Notes under the pieces: model-generated
Database searches by the model: none
What the model was told of the DNA's origin: nothing
The model's input: the letters and a program-made list of their open reading frames with translations, nothing else
Part shown: positions 1,970 to 52,725 of the stretch, piece after piece
How positions within the stretch are numbered: position 1 is the stretch's first letter
Layout of the letters: every line of letters begins with the position of its first letter
NCBI RefSeq assembly: GCF_015207035.1
Contig: NZ_JADEXQ010000036.1
Span: forward strand, 1 to 52,725
Origin: Romeriopsis navalis LEGE 11480
GTDB lineage: Bacteria; Cyanobacteriota; Cyanobacteriia; Leptolyngbyales; Leptolyngbyaceae
DNA length: 52,725 nt
Direction of reading: 5' to 3'
Translations under genes and position numbers: made by a program

Positions 1970-3517
1970 ATGCATCAACTGAATTCCAAGACCGCAAATG
2001 AACTAATCGTGTCCGTTCAACGGGGCGACCTGCTGCCCCATGACGCCATGCGTGCCGCCGAAATCTTCGCCATCACCGATATCGGCAAAGGCACAATCTT
2101 CGACCTGCTGATGTATGGGGCGATCGGGCTGGTTTGTAGTGCGGCGATCGCCTCCCCCGCCGGATTCCTGGTGGGAGCCGGTGGCTTTGTCGCCTCTCTG
2201 GTTCAAAAGGCGAGTAAAGCGAGAAGTCGGGGCCGTGAAATCATTCAGATGAGTGATGCTGATCTAACCGCCTCCCTGGCCGATAACGATCGGGCCATCC
2301 TCACCACCCTAATCAACGCCTGTCCACAACTCCAGGAAAGTCTCGAATCCACCCCCACCGCAACCGAACTCTGTGCTAATCCCGAAACTCTGCAACAAGG
2401 ACCAATTCCCCAGCCAGTAGCGAATTCGTCCGTGCTGTCCAAACACCCACAACTGCAAAACATCCCCTTAGGCAACGTTGCCCATACCCTCGCCAAACAA
2501 CTCAAACCGACTATCATCAGTGCCCGTCCCCGCGTCGGTAAAGGCATCTTCTTCAGCTACCTGAGCCAATATGCCAAACAGCTACACGGAGCCTCCGTCT
2601 GGATGCTGCAACCCAAACCCGCCGTCTCCGAACTGGGCTATTGGAAACACGTCGATCGTTTCCTCGGCATTAACCTGGAGGACTACCCGAAAGACTGTCC
2701 CGAAGTCGCCGCCCAGATGACCCAATTCTTTCAAGCCTGGCGCGATCAAACGCATCGCCCAACCCTACTGGGCATCGATGAATTAGTGAAATTGCAAGCC
2801 ATGCAACCCAAGTGGACCAAAGACTTCCTCATCCCACAAATGCTGGTCGAAGGCAGTAGTGGTGAAACCGCCCAACGGTATCTCTACATCATCACCCAAA
2901 GCCCGCTCGTCTCCGACTTGGGTATGAGTGGCGGGAACCGCTCAGCTTTCGACTTTATGACGATCGAAACCGCCGCCACCCTCGAACATACGGAATCAGT
3001 CAAGAAATCGATCGCCACCCTGAAAAGCATCCCCGAAGCCGAAGATTATGCGGTTAGTCCCGTGGGCTGCCTGGTGTTTCATAGCGGATTTGCCCGGTGG
3101 GCCGCCATACCCGAATACCCAGTGCCAACGATCGGGCCAGATGACCAACTATGCCCCGAACTACAAGCCCTAACCAAAACATCGCCAAGCGGGGAATTCG
3201 TCGTTGTGACCGCTGGTCCAGACTGGGAGCCAATGGATGTGCCAGTCATCCCTGCTGCTCCATCAACAGCGCCATTATCGGATCGCGACACCGTCACCGC
3301 ATTCTTCATCCAGCGCAACTTGCAAAAGCCCTATAGTGCCGGACAGCTAAAAGCCCTCTATCGGCTCTGTGAGCATCTAGAAACCGTAGAACTTGAAACG
3401 ATTCTGTATGACCTTTCAGAACCGAATGGAGAGCAAACCAGCTTACTGAGTCGGATCGACCCGAAAGGCCGGAGTAAAGTCAGGAAATACTACCTCGATA
3501 GCGACGAGGATGCCTGA
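1970..3517 (+). CDS. Membrane-associated P-loop ATPase, FtsK/TraD-like in layout
   Basis: 515 residues. A hydrophobic pair near 45-80 would anchor the N-terminus. A P-loop-like stretch ARPRVGKG lies at 185-192, a Walker B-like TLLGIDELV at 266-274 and a sensor-like YLYIITQSP near 305-313. The C-terminal 80 residues (AFFIQRNLQKPYSAGQL onward) resemble a winged-helix tail. Order and size fit FtsK/TraD-type pumps or coupling-protein-like ATPases, but the P-loop is degenerate (RVGKG, lacking the usual Ser/Thr after the Lys). With MobC and relaxase on the same plasmid, a coupling-like role in DNA transfer is the best guess. The start follows a GAGG site at 1957-1960. Its stop overlaps the start of the 47-residue microprotein by one base. 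Confidence 0.68.
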   Translation: MHQLNSKTANELIVSVQRGDLLPHDAMRAAEIFAITDIGKGTIFDLLMYGAIGLVCSAAIASPAGFLVGAGGFVASLVQKASKARSRGREIIQMSDADLTASLADNDRAILTTLINACPQLQESLESTPTATELCANPETLQQGPIPQPVANSSVLSKHPQLQNIPLGNVAHTLAKQLKPTIISARPRVGKGIFFSYLSQYAKQLHGASVWMLQPKPAVSELGYWKHVDRFLGINLEDYPKDCPEVAAQMTQFFQAWRDQTHRPTLLGIDELVKLQAMQPKWTKDFLIPQMLVEGSSGETAQRYLYIITQSPLVSDLGMSGGNRSAFDFMTIETAATLEHTESVKKSIATLKSIPEAEDYAVSPVGCLVFHSGFARWAAIPEYPVPTIGPDDQLCPELQALTKTSPSGEFVVVTAGPDWEPMDVPVIPAAPSTAPLSDRDTVTAFFIQRNLQKPYSAGQLKALYRLCEHLETVELETILYDLSEPNGEQTSLLSRIDPKGRSKVRKYYLDSDEDA

Positions 3518-3660
3518 TGCGATCTGCAACGACAACAACAAGGAGGGATAGAGTCATAGAGGGCGAATCCCTAGCCAATTTCCGGCTTGTCGTTGTTGTC
3601 CTGGTGGTTGTCGTCGTTGTTGTTGTTGTTGTGGCATTGGCGATCAACCAGATTGAGTGA
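3517..3660 (+). CDS. 47-residue poly-valine transmembrane microprotein
   Basis: The ATG at 3517-3519 shares its A with the TGA stop of the ATPase gene (TGATG), a usual sign of translational coupling. The product has a Thr/Arg-rich N-terminus (RSATTTTRRDR), a short acidic linker, then Arg23 and an almost pure valine helix: Val 25-28, Leu 29, Val 30-39, then Ala-Leu-Ala-Ile and a polar tail. The hydrophobic run of about 19 residues is right for one membrane span, with positive charges favouring N-inside. The DNA is a GTT/GTC/GTG repeat, so replication slippage could change the span length. No family was recognised. The alternative is a chance reading of a low-complexity tract; the use of three Val codons and the exact stop-start overlap argue against that. 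Confidence 0.55.
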   Translation: MRSATTTTRRDRVIEGESLANFRLVVVVLVVVVVVVVVVALAINQIE

Positions 3661-4345: not shown

Positions 4346-5833
4346 ATGCAGAAACTTAAACTCTTAATCTGTGCAACAATTACCTTCATCTTTGTCACGA
4401 TTTCAAGCTACATGGCCTTTCCCATGCCATCGGCCAGGGCAGATGTGATCTTACACGCGTTTGATTGGTCTTACCAAGATATCGCTGACAATGCAGAAGG
4501 CATTTCAGCCGCGGGTTATAAAGCTGTCTTAGTTACACCACCTTTGAAATCCCAAAAGAGCTCTTGTGAGTGGTTTCAGCGTTATCAACCCCAGGATTTT
4601 CGTGTTGTTGATAATTGTGATGGCAACAAAGAAAGTTTTATCAATGCTATTGAAGCCTTGGATAGAGAAGGGGTGCAAACATATGCAGATGTTGTAGTTA
4701 ATCACATGGCGAATGAGCGCGATGGTGCAACCACCTTCCCTGGTAGTGATACGCTGCAAGAATATGATGACTATAACAATTATTGGAAAAATCAAATCCT
4801 TTATGGAGATACTGATGGGAATGGTATTCTTGACAATGGTTTTTTACCTGACGATGGTAAAAGCGATGGCCTATTCGATTCTAATGATTTTCATGATGCG
4901 AAATGCATTAGTGATTACAACAATAGAGATGCTGTTATTTTTGATCGTCTTTGCAAAGGCGAAAATGATCGCGGTTTACCTGATTTAAAAGATAGTGAAC
5001 CTGGCAAAAATTGGGTTAACGATCAACGCAAACAATATATACAGGCCCTTTACAACTTAGGTGTGCGCGGATTCCGAATTGATGCTGCTAAACATATGCC
5101 CCTGGGTGCTATTGAGTATTTCGTCCCTGATCAAGTTGCAAAAAACTCTCAGATGTTTGCCGAAATTATCACTTCAGGTGGAACAACAGATTTAGAGTAT
5201 CAACTATTTCTCAAACCATATTTAAGTCAACTCCCTGAAGAATTTGGAGCTTATGATTTTCCCTTACTCAAAGCCATCAAAAATGCTTTTGCTTTTGGGA
5301 AACCACTATCGGATGTCGCAAACCCCTATGCAACTGGTAATGCTCTGGAAAATACTCGAGCAGTGACTGTTGTCGTTACTCATGACATTCCTTATAACGA
5401 TATCTTTAGAAATAACATTTTTGATCCAAAAGATGAAGATCTGGCATATGCCTACATCATGGGACGAGATGGAGGCACTCCTTTAGTTTTTGATGATGGA
5501 TCAGCAGGTCAATCCGATGGTGGTCGCTGGGTGGGGGTGTGGAAGAAGGATATGATGAAACGCATGATTGATTTCCATAACCATATGCAGGGCAAGCCGA
5601 TGGAAGTCCTTGCAGCAGATGAATGCGCATTGCTATGGCGCCGTGATGAGGATGGAATTGTTGGTATCAATAAGTGTGTGGACGAGCGTTCTCTAACAGT
5701 CGATACGAGTTTCAAGCTTAAGTGGAATTATCCCTACACAGATATCCTGACTGGCAATTTGCTTCCTGAAATTCAAGGTCCTAGCTATACGTTTAAGCTG
5801 CCTGCTCGCAGTGCAAGCATGTGGCTTGATTGA
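4346..5833 (+). CDS. Secreted GH13 alpha-amylase
   Basis: 495 residues from the ATG at 4346; an upstream in-frame TTG at 4319 would add 9 residues before the signal peptide. MQKLKLLIC and a hydrophobic core lead to a signal-peptidase site after SARA. The four GH13 regions are present: I, DVVVNH at 115-120; II, FRIDAAKH with nucleophile Asp246; III, AEII with acid/base Glu273; IV, VVTHD with stabiliser Asp347. The catalytic triad is therefore intact, and the enzyme should hydrolyse alpha-1,4-glucans outside the cell or in the periplasm. A DTDGNG-type acidic loop near 156 may bind calcium. Base use is more A+T-rich than the preceding operon, and a group II intron remnant abuts its stop codon, suggesting separate acquisition. 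Confidence 0.9.
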   Translation: MQKLKLLICATITFIFVTISSYMAFPMPSARADVILHAFDWSYQDIADNAEGISAAGYKAVLVTPPLKSQKSSCEWFQRYQPQDFRVVDNCDGNKESFINAIEALDREGVQTYADVVVNHMANERDGATTFPGSDTLQEYDDYNNYWKNQILYGDTDGNGILDNGFLPDDGKSDGLFDSNDFHDAKCISDYNNRDAVIFDRLCKGENDRGLPDLKDSEPGKNWVNDQRKQYIQALYNLGVRGFRIDAAKHMPLGAIEYFVPDQVAKNSQMFAEIITSGGTTDLEYQLFLKPYLSQLPEEFGAYDFPLLKAIKNAFAFGKPLSDVANPYATGNALENTRAVTVVVTHDIPYNDIFRNNIFDPKDEDLAYAYIMGRDGGTPLVFDDGSAGQSDGGRWVGVWKKDMMKRMIDFHNHMQGKPMEVLAADECALLWRRDEDGIVGINKCVDERSLTVDTSFKLKWNYPYTDILTGNLLPEIQGPSYTFKLPARSASMWLD

Positions 5834-21495: not shown

Positions 21496-23748
21496 ATGAA
21501 AACACTTCAGCTAAAACTACGTGGTATGAATTGTGCCTCCTGCGCTAATGCAATTGAGGAAGCCATCCAGAATGTATCTGGCGTTGATGTTGGCCATGTG
21601 AACTTCAGCATCGAACAAGCCCATATTCAATATGATCCAGATCAAACTAGCCCAGCACAAATTGCTCAAGCTGTTGCAGACATCGGCTATGAAGCAATTC
21701 CACAGGATGCCGTCATTGATGATGATAGACAACAGCAACTACAGCATCAGCAATCGCGCGCGCTACGCCGTAAAGTCACGATCGGAATCATTGGCAGTGT
21801 CCTCTTAGTGCTCGGGATGCTGGGACATATGGGTCTTGCCACTCCGGCGCTATTAAAGCCACTGGAAAATTCCTGGGTACAGATGATCATTGCTGCTCCC
21901 GTTGAATTTTGGGTGGGTTGGCAATTCCATCAGAGTGCATGGAAAGCCTTTCAACACCGCATGGCTGATATGAACACACTAATTTCTGTTGGCACACTTA
22001 TCGCTTTTCTGTATTCCATCTGGGCCACAGTCACTCCGGATTTTTTTAGAGCGCAGGGCTTACCAGCGGATGTTTACTATGAAGCATCGGCGATGATTAT
22101 TACCCTGACATTGCTGGGACGCTTGCTGGAAAACCGTGCAAAGAGCGAAACTTCCGCCGCAATTCGGCAACTGATGGGTCTGCAAGCGAAGACTGCTAGG
22201 GTAATTCGTGATGGCAGTGAATTTGATATTCCGATCGAAGCTGTCGTGGTCGGTGATATTGTCCTTGTGCGCCCAGGAGAGAAAATTCCAGTCGATGGTG
22301 AGGTCGTTTCTGGAAAATCTTCAATCGATGAAGCCATGCTAACTGGGGAAAGTTTGCCTGTAGCTAAGCAAGCAGGTGATTTAGTCATTGGAGCAAGCCT
22401 GAATAAAACAGGTAGCTTTAAGTTTCGTGCCACTAAAATTGGACAAGATACAGTGCTGGCTCAAATTGTCCAATTGGTGCAGCAGGCGCAGGGCTCCAAG
22501 GCACCAATTCAGAAGCTAGCCGACCAAATTACGAGCTGGTTTGTGCCTGCGGTAATTGCGATCGCGATTTCAACATTCATCACTTGGTATAACATCACGG
22601 GCAATCTCACCTTCGCAATTCTAACGATGGTGAGTGTGCTGATTATTGCTTGTCCCTGTGCTTTAGGACTCGCGACACCGACTTCGGTCACTGTCGGAAT
22701 CGGTAAAGGTGCAGCTAATGGGATCCTAATCAAAAGTGCGGACAGTTTAGAACTAGCGCAACGAGTGCGGACAATTGTGCTGGACAAAACAGGCACCGTT
22801 ACCCAAGGAAAACCAGAAGTCACGGATGTTTTATTAGATGGCAGCGTTCTTCGAACCATGCCCTTACCCGAGCATCAAGCATTACTGCGCTTAATTGGAA
22901 CGCTCGAACGTCAATCAGAGCATCCTCTTGCCCAAGCCATTGTCAGCTATCTCACAGATTCACTCAATATGACGGATTTCCCTGAAGCCAATCACTTTGA
23001 AGCAATCGTCGGTAGTGGAGTGACAGCCACGGTCATCAATCAAACAGTTCAAGTCGGCACCGTTCGTTGGCTGCAGGAATTAGGTATCGACACTAGTGCT
23101 GTTATCCAGCAGAAAGCTAGCTGGGAAAGTCAAGGTAAAACTGTGGTTTGTTTAGCGATCGATGATCAGGTCCGAGGCGTAATTGCCATTGCCGATACAG
23201 TCAAACCATCCTCAGCCAAAGCGATTCAAACCTTGCAACGAATGGGCTTAGAAGTTGTTATGTTGACGGGGGATAACCAGCGAACCGCTGAAGCAATTGC
23301 GCAATCTGTGGGAATTGAGCGAGTTGTGGCTGAGGTGCGCCCTGACCAGAAAGCAAATGCCGTCAAACAGCTTCAAGCAAAGGGCGAGCGTGTTGCCATG
23401 GTGGGGGATGGAATTAATGATGCTCCAGCTTTGGCTCAGGCAGATGTCGGAATCGCGATTGGCACCGGGACAGATGTCGCGATTGCTACGGCTGATATTG
23501 TGCTAATTTCTGGTGATTTGAACGGTATTCCAGCATCAATTCATCTCAGCCGTGCCACGATGCGAAATATTCGCCAAAATCTTCTCTTTGCCTTTGGCTA
23601 CAATGTTGCTGGTATTCCGATCGCGGCTGGTATTTTATTCCCGCTTTTCCAATGGTTACTCAGCCCGATTATTGCGGGAGCAGCGATGGCACTAAGCTCA
23701 GTTTCCGTTGTTACAAATGCCCTACGGTTACGGCAGATTAGGCTTTAG
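21496..23748 (+). CDS. copA: Copper-exporting P1B-1 ATPase CopA
   Basis: 750 residues. One N-terminal HMA domain has the Cu(I) site GMNCASC (Cys13, Cys16). Membrane spans follow, then the actuator TGES, the intramembrane CPC (Cys386, Cys388) in [10 protein letters not shown], Asp430 in [10 protein letters not shown], an HP motif in [17 protein letters not shown], and C-terminal YN and [14 protein letters not shown] motifs. The [10 protein letters not shown] and YN/MSS signatures define Cu(I) exporters. It removes Cu(I) from the cytoplasm. In cyanobacteria related proteins (CtaA, PacS) also supply thylakoid copper proteins, but this copy, in a resistance cluster with a MerR regulator, looks like an efflux pump. 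It is co-transcribed with the cupredoxin at 23759 (10-base gap). Confidence 0.95.
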
Positions 23749-33019: not shown

Positions 33020-34816
33020 CTAACGAGCAGTCAGCGTAAACTGCTTCCGACCACTGTGTTCAGATGTTTTGATTTGAGTTTTGATAATCCAGTCACCTTT
33101 CATGCCAAAGTGAGTTTTTACCCGGAATTGACCGGGCTTTGGCAATGCTTTCACATCAACCATCGTTGTCATCGGAGCCATATTTTTCATTGGCATGGTC
33201 ACATCTACATCTAGCTGTTTCACAGGAATTGGCGATTTCGATTGTTTATCAAGTACCTGCAAAGTCAGTTCAGCAGCTCCAGCTTTCACCTGCTCCTGAG
33301 CTGTCGGACTTACCAGCTCAATCACCACATTTCCCTGATCAACTTGATTTAGAGAAGCAACTGATTTATCGGCAGTATCAACCATGGCCACTTTCTTACC
33401 TTCAAGTAAGCGAGAAAAACCACTTGTGATGACTTGTTCTCCCGCTTTCAACCCAGTTATAATTTCAACGCGATCACCACTGCTGACACCGCGCTTCACC
33501 ACTCGGCGAGTTGCCATTGCAGCATCACCACTACCCTGTACAATCCAAATTGCCGGTTTCCCCTGAAACGTGTGTAATGCCAATTGTGGTACAGAAATAG
33601 CGGCTGGATTACTATCCTTGATGACCTGCATTTCCAGAAATTGGCCTGCCAGTAAACGCTCACCAGGATTGTTCACAATTGCTTCAACCGTGATGGTTCG
33701 AGTTTGGGGGTTAGCATCGGGAAAAATACTGCTCACTTCTCCCCGAATTGGTGTCATTTTTGTTCCAGGAACCGTTGCCATAACACGGGTCCCCCGCATG
33801 ATTCCCATAGCATCAGCCTGGGCAATGTTCGCCCGTAATCGCACACGACTATAGTCACCAATTTTAAGAATCCCCATGCCCGGTCGGACAACAACACCAG
33901 GATCAGCCATCCGTGCCTGCACAATGCCAGTCACTGGCGCAATAATATCGGTATAACCTTCTAACACAATAGCTGTATCAGCTTTAGCTTGTGACTGGCC
34001 AACTTTGGCACGATCGCGGCGAATTTCTGCCTGCATCCGCACGAGCTTAATTTTAGCTCCCGAAATCGCAGCTTCTTTGGCTGATACTTCAGATGACACG
34101 ACGTCATAGTCATTCTGCGAAATCGCACCACCAGCCACTAAACTTTTGAAGCGTTTTGCCTTGAGCTGAATATAATCAAGTTCAGCTTTCATCCGGCTAA
34201 TCTCGCGGGCCTGCTCCTGAATCTGCATTTCATTCGCAGTCACCATTTTTTGCATGACTTCCGTCTCGGACTGTGCCTCCATCAATTGGGTCCGACGTTC
34301 AGAAGCATCAAGCTGAGCAAGGAGTTGGCCTTTACGCACACGATCGCCAGGGTAGATGCCATAATTGCGCAACTGCCCGGCAATCCTTGGATAGACCGTT
34401 ACTTCGGTGTAGGGATAAACCGTACCCGTATATTTAACCGCTTGTTTGAGTAAACGTGGCTGGACCGTCTCAACTTGCACAGGAACAGCATTAAATGCAC
34501 CCTGCACAGTCATCATCTCATCGTGAGACATTTTGCTGTGATCCATTCCAGCCATTGAGTCGCCTTGCTCAGTCCCAGCCATCGCACGATTGCCGAAGTG
34601 CCGCACGGCCAACCATATACTGCTGGATAGCAACGCAAAGACACCAAATCCAATCAGACTAGAGACAAGCCGAAATTGAGATTTTGTGTCTGATGAATTT
34701 GAAATCTCAGATCCATCAGACATCGAATTTGACTCCATTGCCCTTTCAGTTAATTTGGCTGATTCAGTCAAATCATTTGCCTGAACTGAACGGTCCAGCT
34801 CATTTTCTTGATTCAT
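33020..34816 (-). CDS. RND adaptor fused to a C-terminal FixH-like domain (CopB-like)
   Basis: 598 residues. A cytoplasmic Ser-rich N-terminus, a membrane anchor (about 50-70) and GMDHSKMSHDEM (90-101), a copper-type Met/His motif, come first. The adaptor core follows: a lipoyl half (YPRIAGQLRNYGIYPGDRVRKGQLLAQLDASE), a coiled coil (about 178-280), the second lipoyl half (TDIIAPVTGIVQARMADPGV) and barrels ending with ITSGFSRLLEGKKV. From about residue 495 a FixH/YtkA-like module is appended (VVIELVSPTAQEQVKAGAA; VDVTMPMKNMAPMTTM; THFGMKGDWIIKT), homologous to the neighbouring lipoprotein. Such a fusion is unusual and suggests that the module must sit at the adaptor. A CopR-type box lies 48 bp upstream. 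Confidence 0.88.
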   Translation of the reverse strand: MNQENELDRSVQANDLTESAKLTERAMESNSMSDGSEISNSSDTKSQFRLVSSLIGFGVFALLSSSIWLAVRHFGNRAMAGTEQGDSMAGMDHSKMSHDEMMTVQGAFNAVPVQVETVQPRLLKQAVKYTGTVYPYTEVTVYPRIAGQLRNYGIYPGDRVRKGQLLAQLDASERRTQLMEAQSETEVMQKMVTANEMQIQEQAREISRMKAELDYIQLKAKRFKSLVAGGAISQNDYDVVSSEVSAKEAAISGAKIKLVRMQAEIRRDRAKVGQSQAKADTAIVLEGYTDIIAPVTGIVQARMADPGVVVRPGMGILKIGDYSRVRLRANIAQADAMGIMRGTRVMATVPGTKMTPIRGEVSSIFPDANPQTRTITVEAIVNNPGERLLAGQFLEMQVIKDSNPAAISVPQLALHTFQGKPAIWIVQGSGDAAMATRRVVKRGVSSGDRVEIITGLKAGEQVITSGFSRLLEGKKVAMVDTADKSVASLNQVDQGNVVIELVSPTAQEQVKAGAAELTLQVLDKQSKSPIPVKQLDVDVTMPMKNMAPMTTMVDVKALPKPGQFRVKTHFGMKGDWIIKTQIKTSEHSGRKQFTLTAR

Positions 34817-47333: not shown

Positions 47334-47935
47334 TAGTTCCACCCCTGCTGAATCTGCTTTCCAATCACTTGATAATCTTTGAAGGCTTTCTTCCCAGCAT
47401 CGCCATACATGGCAACAGGTGCGCCCTCATATGCCGCATCACGATATACAGCAAGATGTCGAATTCCGCCTTCAAAGGTCATCAGATCAGCTTCTTCAAA
47501 CATCGCTTTCGCCTCGTTATAGAGCTTCTTTCCACGCGCTGGTAAGCCTGTCATGAGGATACGGTATTTATCGGGCTTGCTCTTCAATAATTCAGCAAAA
47601 GCAATTGCGGCTCTTACATCGAAAATATCTAGCTTTGTTGGAATCACTACTAAATCTGAAGCATCAATCAATTCTGATAAATCTTCATCAGATGTCCGAG
47701 CAGCTGTATCAACAACTAACACATCATATTCTGACAAGTCATCATCGTTACTTAAAACACCAAATGGCAACTTGAATTCTGAAGACTCTGCCCAATCAAT
47801 TGCCGTCCGATTTGGGTCGCCATCAACTAGTATCGTTTCCCGCCGAGGACGACGAGTAGCAAAATAATAGGCCAAATTTATTGCCGATGTGGTTTTGCCT
47901 ACACCCCCTTTGAGCGATGCGATCGTAATAATCAT
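47333..47935 (-). CDS. parA: ParA-family partition ATPase
   Basis: 200 residues from ATG 47935; an earlier in-frame ATG at 48064 has no family match before MIITIAS. It has deviant Walker A SLKGGVGKTTSAINLAYYFA (with the signature Lys9), ETILVDGDPNRTAIDW and Walker B YDVLVVDTAAR. It is the short ParA type without a DNA-binding N-terminal extension, so repression is probably left to ParB. It should position plasmid copies on the nucleoid. It overlaps parB by one base. Confidence 0.92.
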   Translation of the reverse strand: MIITIASLKGGVGKTTSAINLAYYFATRRPRRETILVDGDPNRTAIDWAESSEFKLPFGVLSNDDDLSEYDVLVVDTAARTSDEDLSELIDASDLVVIPTKLDIFDVRAAIAFAELLKSKPDKYRILMTGLPARGKKLYNEAKAMFEEADLMTFEGGIRHLAVYRDAAYEGAPVAMYGDAGKKAFKDYQVIGKQIQQGWN

Positions 47936-48512: not shown

Positions 48513-51500
48513 TTAAGCCGACCGATTTCGATCTTCCTCCCACGTATCTTCACCAACTGGCACCCGAGCACCAGGAACTAGCGTAGTTTGTTCCTGGTGT
48601 GATTTTATTGAATCCTGCTTTTCGAGGGGTTCAGAGCTGATCCATACCCCTGAGTTACTCTTTTCACTTACGGGGTGTGGATCTTTTGGCTGACGCCGTT
48701 CGAGCACTGCTAGCAGATAGGCTAAGCGCTCTGGTTCAATACTGTAGGCTCCTCGTCGCCGATGGCGTTTGGTTGTAATCCCGCAGGTGGACAGCATCAC
48801 ACCAATAATTTGCTGGTCCGACATCGAGTCAATCTTGGTAAAGCCAAATCCCAGTCGAAACTCTGCCGCGTGATTTCGGATGAACTGAGCGATCGGTTCC
48901 GTCATCTCCGTCATTAGCTCATCGACCTTACCCGCGATAATCTGCGCAATCAGCTTGGTCATCCCCGCTTGCTCCATCAACCAACGCCGCACCGCACTCT
49001 TATCCCAATCCTGCGGCGTATCGGCATTGCGATTGATACTGCTGGCACTGCGCTCGATCGCCGTGGCATGGGATAAAGCTGCCTCTAGATTGCGAATCTC
49101 CTTTTGAGCTGCACCCTTACGGTCAAGCAATACATCTTCGGTTTCGACCGTCTCTAGACGATAGAACTTCTGTAATTGCCAGCGGGCTAAACTCAAGATT
49201 TCCTCGGGCGTGAGTGCTTCGGTCTGCTCCGATAGCTTTTTGGCTTTCTTATCATCGATTGGTTTAGCTTTCGCTACAGCTTGAGCATGGGCTAAGTTCA
49301 CCTGCTTGCGAGCCGTCTTAATTGCTTCACCGGCTGCAATCGCTTCCGCTTGGCTAATCGATGGAGTGAGAAACTGTACCTGCTTCCCTTCTTGTCGTAG
49401 CAGAGCAATCAATGTTTCGCGCAAGGCCCTCATTCCCCGATTGCGTCGGACTTCGAGCGCTGCCAGCATCTTGAGATTATGGGATTGCCAATCAATCCCC
49501 TCAGTTTTGACGATCGTTTCAGGGCTAAGACTGTGTCGAGCCAATCGTACTACTGCTGTACTAATTTGTTTGAACTCCTTCAGGAAGGCTGTGACGGTCT
49601 GGGCTTTGCTGAGTTTGCTATAGGCATTCCCCCGTTTGGCAATATGTACGAAGCGCGGCACCTGATTAGAGCGAACTCGATCCAATGATTGGGCCATACT
49701 ATGGGCCGTGATACTGCCGCCCTTGTAGAAGCCCCAGACTGAATCAATCAAATCAGTATGAGACTTGATACTGAACCCTTGGGTCACAGTCGGACTGGTA
49801 ATGATGACTCGGATGCCCATACGAATCAGGAGCGGAATTGTTCCACCTTTACTGGCAAGGAAATCAGCTTCTAAGTCATCACCGCTGGTATCACTGGTAA
49901 TTAGTAGGCTTTTTATCCCAATCTTTTGCAACATACTCGCGAAGCTCTCGGCCATCGTCTTGCCATCGGAGTTGAGATAAATCAGTTGGTGCTCCGGCAA
50001 GACTGCCACGCGCTCTAAAAAACTCGCGATCGTGGGGTTAAGTGGACATTCGAAAATGGTTGTTTGGTAGGTCAGAGCTTGACGATCGCTGCGGACTAAA
50101 TAAGCCTGTTCATCACGCATCGATTCGATATAGCGAATGGCTTCCTCAGTGAGGTCAGCATCGGCAAGAATTACCAAGTCTGCGGCTTGCACCCGGCGGA
50201 TGAATTCCGATAGGAGCAGGGGGCGCAATCCGTCTTTATTGGCTAGCTTTGAACCGAGTAAGAATTCCAGGGTAGCGGTTAGTTCATCGAGGATAAGAAT
50301 CCCACCATCCATCCGTTGGACTTTCAGTAATGACGGAATACAGACGGAAGCGCCTTTAACCAGTAGGCCATCTTTCAATAGATAGGAGCCAATCACATCA
50401 CTATCGTTGATGAACACACCGCCCCAGGTTTCGGCTTGGTCGCGGCCAAGGCTGACTAGTGGTGTAAAGGAAAGCCAATCATTGTCGCCGAGGAGCTGCG
50501 CGATCGCTTCTGATTTACCAGTCCCTTTGCCACCATAGAGCGCCACGATGCCGGACTGCGGTAATTGCTCAGTGACAGCCCTAAATTCTTGGTTGCCAAT
50601 GGGTAAATCGGGTTGGCGTTTGACGGCGGCAGCAAGCTGGCGACCGATGCGCCATTCGCCAGCGGGAAGTGCTGATTTATAGGCCACCTCCCAAGCCTCA
50701 ACTCCGGCATTCACAATCAAGTCATCGAGACCTTTGCATCGGCCATTCTGACCGTCCCAGTCGGCAATGCTAACGGATGCGCCAGTCTGTTCAAGATACC
50801 AAGACAAATCCGCCAGTGCGCCCTCAACTTTATAGCGGGTCTGGGGTTTTACATCTTGGTCAAAGGCCAGGATAAATTGACGACCCTCGACGGCAAAGCG
50901 CTGGAGATCAGAAATCAGTTCGGGCTTCAAGCGTCGGATGCGTTCATCCGCGATCGTCTCGTATTTACTGACTCCGGCATTTACCCCGTACAGCGCAATT
51001 GTCACATAGCCTTGTGACAGTGCGGCCAAGGCTTTCTTTCCCCCCTCAGTAATGACGATGGGAATATCCGCTGGACAGTCGGCCACCCAATCCCAGAATG
51101 AGTCTGCACCATCAATCTCAAATCCATAGCGCTGACTGATCGACTGTGCCAGTGCAGTGGGCACCGCCGGGAGAAAAGCCCGTGAGCCATTGCCGACGGG
51201 TGTTTCATATTTGCGAATTTTCCGCGACTTGTTATCCTGCTTGGGTCTTGATAGCTTGGCCTGCCAGCAAGAACCATCCTCGTTCAGCAGTAAAGCGGCC
51301 AGCAATGATTCATTGGCGCGGAGTCCAAACCGGCGATAACGCCAATTCAGTGCCTCATGAATGGGTGTTTCCGCTTCGCCGAGGGTATTGCTTTCTAAAT
51401 CGCCCACTACCTTTACGGCAGTGGCATATAAAGCTGGAGCAATCCCCGAGCCGTGGATAAATTCGGTTTGAAATGATTCGAGTGGAGTCTTTTGCTCCGC

Positions 51501-51518
51501 TGCCAGAGTCGCGCACAT
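48513..51518 (-). CDS. Plasmid replication protein, CyRepA1 type (DUF3854 primase-like plus helicase)
   Basis: 1001 residues. A Toprim-like DUF3854 region carries ITEGGKKALAAL (Glu at 158) and FILAFDQDVKP (Asp219, Asp221). A helicase-like ATPase follows: Walker A LYGGKGTGKSEAI (328-339), Walker B ILILDELTA (407-415), DADLT (about 453) and a C-terminal RecA-like segment (ITSPTVTQGFSI; MAQSLDRVRSN). This primase-helicase layout is that of CyRepA1, the initiator of many cyanobacterial plasmids. It should start replication and probably defines the plasmid's incompatibility. The tail (from about 690) is helical and highly charged. The long upstream region holds repeats and likely the origin. Confidence 0.9.
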   Translation of the reverse strand: MCATLAAEQKTPLESFQTEFIHGSGIAPALYATAVKVVGDLESNTLGEAETPIHEALNWRYRRFGLRANESLLAALLLNEDGSCWQAKLSRPKQDNKSRKIRKYETPVGNGSRAFLPAVPTALAQSISQRYGFEIDGADSFWDWVADCPADIPIVITEGGKKALAALSQGYVTIALYGVNAGVSKYETIADERIRRLKPELISDLQRFAVEGRQFILAFDQDVKPQTRYKVEGALADLSWYLEQTGASVSIADWDGQNGRCKGLDDLIVNAGVEAWEVAYKSALPAGEWRIGRQLAAAVKRQPDLPIGNQEFRAVTEQLPQSGIVALYGGKGTGKSEAIAQLLGDNDWLSFTPLVSLGRDQAETWGGVFINDSDVIGSYLLKDGLLVKGASVCIPSLLKVQRMDGGILILDELTATLEFLLGSKLANKDGLRPLLLSEFIRRVQAADLVILADADLTEEAIRYIESMRDEQAYLVRSDRQALTYQTTIFECPLNPTIASFLERVAVLPEHQLIYLNSDGKTMAESFASMLQKIGIKSLLITSDTSGDDLEADFLASKGGTIPLLIRMGIRVIITSPTVTQGFSIKSHTDLIDSVWGFYKGGSITAHSMAQSLDRVRSNQVPRFVHIAKRGNAYSKLSKAQTVTAFLKEFKQISTAVVRLARHSLSPETIVKTEGIDWQSHNLKMLAALEVRRNRGMRALRETLIALLRQEGKQVQFLTPSISQAEAIAAGEAIKTARKQVNLAHAQAVAKAKPIDDKKAKKLSEQTEALTPEEILSLARWQLQKFYRLETVETEDVLLDRKGAAQKEIRNLEAALSHATAIERSASSINRNADTPQDWDKSAVRRWLMEQAGMTKLIAQIIAGKVDELMTEMTEPIAQFIRNHAAEFRLGFGFTKIDSMSDQQIIGVMLSTCGITTKRHRRRGAYSIEPERLAYLLAVLERRQPKDPHPVSEKSNSGVWISSEPLEKQDSIKSHQEQTTLVPGARVPVGEDTWEEDRNRSA

Positions 51519-52324: not shown

Positions 52325-52725
52325 TTACCGTTGCGCACTTAAGATATTTGTTGCGGTTAGCTTCAACCCTGAAAAGGTGGGAGAGGTTATCATCTGGGTT
52401 CCAGTGAAAACTACATCGGTGTATGCGCCGCCGCTCAAAGTGCAGATCGTGATTTTCTCCTCCATTGGGTCCACAATCCAATACTCTGGAATATCTAAAA
52501 CCGAATACTCGCTATGTTTTGCGCGATAGTCGATTGTGATTGTCGAAGGACTAACGACTTCGACCACAAGTAAAGGTGATGGTTCATTCAGCGGAATAAA
52601 GGCTTCACGATCGGCCATCGATTGCCATTGCACCGCAGGAAGTACAACGACATCTGGGATTCTAGCGGTTTCCCAGCGGCTTCCCCTTGGGGATTGAATT
52701 GCCAGTTTCATATCCTTCGATACCC
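52325..52725 (-). CDS. Uma2 family (DUF820) putative endonuclease, C-terminal part; begins at 314 across the join
   Basis: C-terminal part of the gene that starts at 314. It carries the conserved core ARIPDVVVLP (the Asp of the PD motif), then PLLVVEVVSPST (the E-x-V motif with Glu), YRAKHSEYSVLDIPEYWIVDP, and a C-terminal beta-rich segment ending LTATNILSAQR. The EVVSPST and Y..KH.EY...IPEYWIVDP blocks are hallmarks of the family. All catalytic-type acidic positions look intact. The last 127 bases duplicate the left end, so this is one gene and not two. Codon phase is continuous over the join. Confidence 0.88.
   Translation of the reverse strand, partial: VSKDMKLAIQSPRGSRWETARIPDVVVLPAVQWQSMADREAFIPLNEPSPLLVVEVVSPSTITIDYRAKHSEYSVLDIPEYWIVDPMEEKITICTLSGGAYTDVVFTGTQMITSPTFSGLKLTATNILSAQR
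52599..52725. repeat. Terminal overlap (copy 2) marking a circular molecule
   Basis: Exact second copy of bases 1-127. It should be counted only once when the circle is closed. Confidence 0.95.

Follow-up and report, generated by a model that had tools for sequence, protein, structure and literature searches.

The plasmid and its ATPase module

The DNA analysed here, called the window throughout, is a stretch of 52,725 nucleotides from Romeriopsis navalis LEGE 11480. Since its two ends are identical over 127 nt (positions 1–127 and 52599–52725), the window most likely represents a complete circular plasmid of 52,598 bp. Three consecutive genes on its forward strand are of interest. The first (698–1165) encodes a protein of 155 residues with a single N-terminal hydrophobic stretch (cluster c3), the second (1169–1945) a protein of 258 residues with four predicted membrane stretches (cluster c2), and the third (1970–3517) a P-loop ATPase of 515 residues in which the Walker A (RPRVGKG) and Walker B motifs are conserved. 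Hydropathy indicates an N-terminal hydrophobic region at residues 42–79 of the ATPase (2093–2206), by which the protein would be anchored in the membrane. Its C-terminal domain, with an approximate boundary, covers residues 440–515 (3287–3514) and is proposed below to recognise a DNA repeat array.

Relatives of the two smaller proteins recur directly 5' of the ATPase gene, with homologues of the 155-residue protein at the same position in 15 loci and of the 258-residue protein in 16 loci; the 155-residue protein is a recurring small membrane partner of the ATPase module. The homologous loci and several named plasmids bear out the original prediction insofar as cyanobacterial plasmids repeatedly carry the ATPase together with both membrane proteins, as a module that lacks annotation. 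The ATPase is found on named plasmids of Trichormus, Nostoc, Tolypothrix, Fischerella, Allocoleopsis and Pseudanabaena, several of which carry arrays, e.g. ten copies of GCCACA at 6–174 nt past the ATPase stop codon on plasmid5 of Fischerella NIES-4106. A relative is also encoded by pDU1 of Nostoc PCC 7524 (NC_008440; L146:1557–2690, L-numbers being labels of loci that bear ATPase homologues), where no array was detected near the gene. A scan of genome contigs for relatives returned one only, and scans of IMG/VR returned none. One clade, in which no array was detected, has an M23 peptidase gene among those that lie 3' of the ATPase gene.

A second copy of the module is present in the same genome on contig C143 (L050:1759–3378), with membrane proteins that are 72–74% identical to those of the window (74% for the paralogue of the 258-residue protein). 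The similarity of its ATPase (67%) is confined to the first 135 residues; the C-terminal end differs, and a weak CCCAG repeat lies 3' of the gene. Elsewhere in this locus (L050:601–800), GAAGTCGCATGAATGGAAAC repeats with spacers resemble a CRISPR array.

The poly-valine frame and the repeat array of the window

An open frame of 47 codons (3517–3660, forward strand) begins with an ATG within the TGATG sequence that overlaps the ATPase stop codon (3515–3517) and reads ...RLVVVVLVVVVVVVVVVALAINQIE, i.e. four Val, one Leu and ten Val. These features had been correctly described in the original prediction, which took the frame for a membrane microprotein and the fourth gene of a membrane system. 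The first three genes of that system recur as described above, while the fourth is unsupported. The tract underlying the frame is a degenerate TTG/GTT repeat (3587–3632 according to TRF, with period 3, 15.3 copies and 79% matches); its longest perfect GTT run has only five units and it is therefore a poor slippage tract. The remaining forward frames across the tract are likewise open, and the reverse strand has a poly-Thr frame of 55 residues. This is what is expected of GTT/AAC-rich DNA, and hence the open frame is worthless as evidence for a gene. No relatives of the 47-codon frame were found in 72,556 plasmids, elsewhere in the genome, or among an initial set of homologous loci. In the L003/L051 operon, whose ATPase comes closest to that of the window (about 62–63% identical), the TGATG overlap is kept, with a frame of only 15 codons and a different sequence, and the frames that start near the ATPase stop codon in 42 loci are short or mutually unrelated. 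A small frame is thus not conserved in homologous operons, and it was dropped as a gene. In spite of the TGATG overlap and the open frame, a real microprotein that is translationally coupled to the ATPase is hardly credible. The conserved element after the ATPase stop codon is a DNA array and not a peptide, and the supposed microprotein is most likely one half of this array.

The GTT-rich DNA forms one arm of an array of words of about 8 bp (GTTGTC[G/C]T) that is inverted across approximately 100 nt. The right arm (3586–3632, forward orientation) contains GTTGTC[G/C]T-like copies at positions 3586, 3595, 3607, 3616 and 3625, at successive steps of 9, 12, 9 and 9 nt, and the left arm (3527–3546, reverse orientation) contains GTTGTCGT at 3529–3536 and GTTGTTGT at 3532–3539. 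When one mismatch at most is allowed, the word ACGACAAC/GTTGTCGT occurs in six non-overlapping copies, a number reached in none of 60 dinucleotide shuffles, and this is the sole such cluster on the plasmid. The array is weaker than most arrays of the family described below: it has four exact hexamer copies, which is below the exact-word threshold used for the homologues, and it clearly passes only with one mismatch allowed. The most similar operon (L051) has its own array, which has in common with that of the window only a TGTC core and the 9/12 spacing. Assignment of the window array to the family pattern is consequently good but not certain; it is based on where the array lies, how its words are spaced and what the relatives have. 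An array can be mimicked by low-complexity GTT DNA, and the period-3 tract and the weak exact-word count would also suit a chance microsatellite, regardless of what is found at other loci. We regard this as improbable, as the left arm is a separate inverted copy, the 9/12 spacing is common to the window and L051, the shuffles and the remainder of the plasmid contain no equal, and the tract lies at the right place for a family array. On balance, the window array is probably a recognition site of the ATPase tail.

Arrays in homologous loci

Arrays exceeding all shuffles were found in 54 of 84 cyanobacterial homologues, the exact-word shuffle test giving no significant array in the other 30. Most of these arrays are more regular than that of the window. 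Thirty-six of these arrays adjoin the ATPase stop codon, 13 lie further downstream (mostly 400–550 nt) and five are inside DNA that codes for a linker of the ATPase. Each locus has its own word, which is direct in one half of the array and reverse-complemented in the other, as in L054 (GTAGGAC seven times, followed by GTCCTAC six times), L061 (TGTATC/GATACA, 12 copies) and L074 (TGTAGC/GCTACA, 13 copies); the arrays of L086 and L111 are almost entirely in one orientation. Exactly one switch of orientation was observed in 32 of the 43 two-way arrays, i.e. those with at least two copies each way, where 2.1 would be expected. The start-to-start spacings of the words peak at 8–9 and 12 nt. We found no earlier description of such arrays in open papers.

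In a sliding scan of 889 kb, 75 blocks were identified, 29 of which directly follow an ATPase gene. Many of the remaining blocks are at two fixed places, namely the linker-coding DNA of the ATPase (L052, L062, L066, L127 and L045) or about 400–550 nt downstream (L094, L096, L104, L109 and others). The idea that several subfamilies are array-less proved wrong for many of them, as their arrays are displaced. Where the array is embedded in the gene, as at L062:8701–8900 and L052:1151–1350, the same DNA encodes a low-complexity linker of the protein and serves as a site. The ATPases of L096, L104, L108, L110, L113–L116 and L120 end in an acidic-aromatic DYDF tip that resembles the tip of single-stranded DNA-binding protein, and have their array 400–550 nt downstream. 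A further dense repeat block, of AGGGTCGCTAG units, is located far from the ATPase gene at L054:2101–2300.

Correspondence between array word and ATPase tail

The array word goes with the last 75 residues of the ATPase, i.e. its C-terminal domain, and not with the motor. In 28 pairs of homologues with similar tails and dissimilar motors, word similarity was 0.633 versus 0.402 in permutations (0 of 5000 reaching the observed value), whereas the 35 pairs with similar motors and dissimilar tails had a word similarity of 0.379, without any excess. A second similarity measure gave the same tail-word result. The permutation treats pairs of kin as independent; as the homologues are related and partly redundant, its counts overstate independence, and the argument is borne by about five independent families of swaps. 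Natural domain-swap groups are L058/L074/L095, L053/L085/L103, L080/L105 and L088/L093. For instance, the motors of L058, L074 and L095 are only 24–28% identical (in partial alignments) and their tails 55–72%, and all three have the word TGTAGC. Likewise, L053 and L085 share GTAACG with motors that are 29% and tails that are 50% identical, whereas the pair L053 and L054, with motors that are very similar, differs in both tail and word.

The tail-coding DNA and the array adjoin each other and could therefore have travelled together. Passive linkage of this kind appears unlikely, because in old swaps (L053/L085, L053/L103, L058/L095 and L088/L093) the spacers have no residual similarity left, while the words are kept or overlap. 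Moreover, L080 and L105 have an almost identical array layout but different words (GTGGCA versus GTGTCA), from which it follows that the copies have changed together. These comparisons are most simply read as binding of the word by the tail, and across the family the array is very likely to be the recognition site of the ATPase tail.

Nature of the ATPase and comparison with known systems

No curated family of Pfam, NCBIfam or PHROGs passed its threshold for the ATPase (including the Pfam FtsK cut-off); there were only weak superfamily-level matches, e.g. to TrwB_AAD_bind with an E-value of 0.003 in one or two members, and sequence and profile searches of the PDB gave no meaningful match. Profile-profile alignment of the family with hhalign was more informative, with probabilities of 87% to Tra of pIJ101 and 76% to the motor of E. 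coli FtsK, as against 2–4% for the controls (a ParA-like protein, F TraD and a RecD-like helicase). The FtsK/Tra match spans Walker A, a DPK motif, Walker B and the motifs that follow. By eye, the sequence pattern of the tail is suggestive of a winged helix, albeit with no significant match to the FtsK gamma domain, and an AlphaFold2 model built from a two-sequence alignment had a mean pLDDT of 31. From these sequence comparisons we infer that the protein is a putative membrane-anchored FtsK/Tra-like translocase of double-stranded DNA.

The closest precedent is found in Streptomyces plasmids, where the TraB/Tra proteins are membrane-anchored FtsK-like ATPases with a C-terminal DNA-recognition domain for plasmid-specific short repeats (PMC3583192, PMC5365140). 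In pWTY27, TraA binds a clt locus that extends over 16 bp of traA and 159 bp of neighbouring non-coding sequence and contains direct repeats of 7 bp (PMC3583192). The cyanobacterial ATPases resemble the TraB/Tra-clt pairs of pSVH1, pIJ101 and pWTY27 in their FtsK-type motor, in the N-terminal hydrophobic region (residues 42–79 of the window protein), and in having short repeats that are specific to the plasmid and lie in cis close to the gene (in 54 of 84 homologues, and in the window with one mismatch allowed). They differ in their hosts, in the two opposed array halves, in the position of the array, which is sometimes inside the gene or further downstream, and in the presence of the membrane partners of 155 and 258 residues and often of a ParM-like actin; no family model passed. 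In the Streptomyces system, a C-terminal winged helix reads the repeats, and double-stranded DNA passes between cells without a relaxase; the window plasmid also has a relaxase. The best reading by analogy is that the cyanobacterial ATPase and array work like TraB and clt, without a claim of membership. Similarities to FtsK/SpoIIIE include the motor, the N-terminal membrane region and a C-terminal domain guiding on 8-bp words, which in FtsK are the KOPS words; the cyanobacterial words are instead locus-specific and clustered in one array beside the gene. The coupling proteins VirD4/TraD of relaxase-dependent conjugation (as for pCC7120alpha) are also P-loop ATPases with a membrane region, and a relaxase is encoded on the window plasmid, but the family profile does not match F TraD (0.8–2%).

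A possible DNA-moving system

The arrays beside the plasmid ATPase genes suggest an undescribed DNA-moving system, and a non-coding array combined with a tail-recognising, membrane-anchored FtsK/Tra-like translocase is probably the best explanation of the observations. We propose that the array, with its words of about 8 bp in two opposed orientations, is where the ATPase from the gene just upstream would dock with its C-terminal domain. Binding of the tail to the array would load the ATPase specifically on its own plasmid, the DNA of which could then be pumped across a membrane or septum, with the proteins of 155 and 258 residues as presumed partners of the pump. Transfer between cells is tentatively favoured as the purpose, with partition as the main rival, because the precedent of TraB and clt in Streptomyces is close. 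More tentatively still, the module may represent an undescribed and widespread cyanobacterial transfer system, with an FtsK/Tra-like pump and a locus-specific recognition array, in which tail and array evolve as an exchangeable cassette and plasmids move as double-stranded DNA between cyanobacterial cells independently of a relaxase.

Partition or rescue of DNA at the septum would have the array act as a centromere-like or orienting site and the ATPase, perhaps with a ParM-like actin, keep copies in both daughter cells. Of 48 loci, 17 indeed have an actin-like (ALP_N) gene near the ATPase gene, and 11 loci have one for a DUF3854 replication protein. FtsK and SpoIIIE, which the motor resembles, clear DNA from the septum, and the array halves are in opposed orientation. 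A ParM-like actin nearby and a cis site of short repeats are also reminiscent of ParMRC and of FcmBC, which is derived from it (PMC12645912). The cyanobacterial site, however, tracks the ATPase tail, whereas the ParMRC site is bound by ParR, and in the window the module has no actin gene and ParA-like genes are encoded separately on the plasmid; on balance, this role seems less likely than transfer. An action of the inverted array as RNA, in the form of a 3' hairpin for terminating or stabilising the transcript of the operon, seems unlikely. The window array folds at -66 kcal/mol (z -2.7), but over 34 arrays compared with motif-preserving controls the mean z was only -1.1, which is weak for a primary function; seven were below -2 and 27 above, and spacer pairing was mostly no better than shuffled. 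Nor would a hairpin be expected from arrays in almost one orientation (L086/L111), from those with mixed orientation in coding DNA (L062, L052) or from those 400–550 nt downstream, and it leaves the correspondence of word and tail unexplained. This correspondence also speaks against the array being the oriT nick site of a plasmid relaxase. A NikA/MobC-like protein and a MobA/VirD2-type relaxase are encoded on the plasmid (window 40836–42259), which is predicted to be mobilizable on that basis, but these genes are separated from the array by about 38 kb (about 14 kb the other way round the plasmid) and no relaxase is among the identified recurring neighbours of the ATPase loci, making an oriT very improbable.

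Among 424 cyanobacterial plasmids, 88% were classified as likely immobile under the current model, and a mechanism not yet known was suggested (PMC8600333). Most cyanobacterial plasmids are without recognisable conjugation genes, and a self-addressed DNA pump on many of them would, if true, be a concrete candidate for the missing mobility mechanism. In addition, the natural domain swaps provide ready pairs of tail and DNA word with which the reading of DNA by a short protein domain could be studied.

Other genes of the window plasmid

The plasmid further encodes a DUF3854 replication protein (window 48516–51518) and a ParA/VirC1-like ATPase (47336–47935). The region 8520–36691 probably represents metal-resistance cargo, judging from its ORF sequences, with large efflux-pump-like proteins, a heavy-metal-ATPase-like protein (21496–23748) and an HlyD/CusB-type adaptor with a YtkA domain (33023–34816). 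An alpha-amylase family protein is encoded at 4346–5830, adjoining the array.
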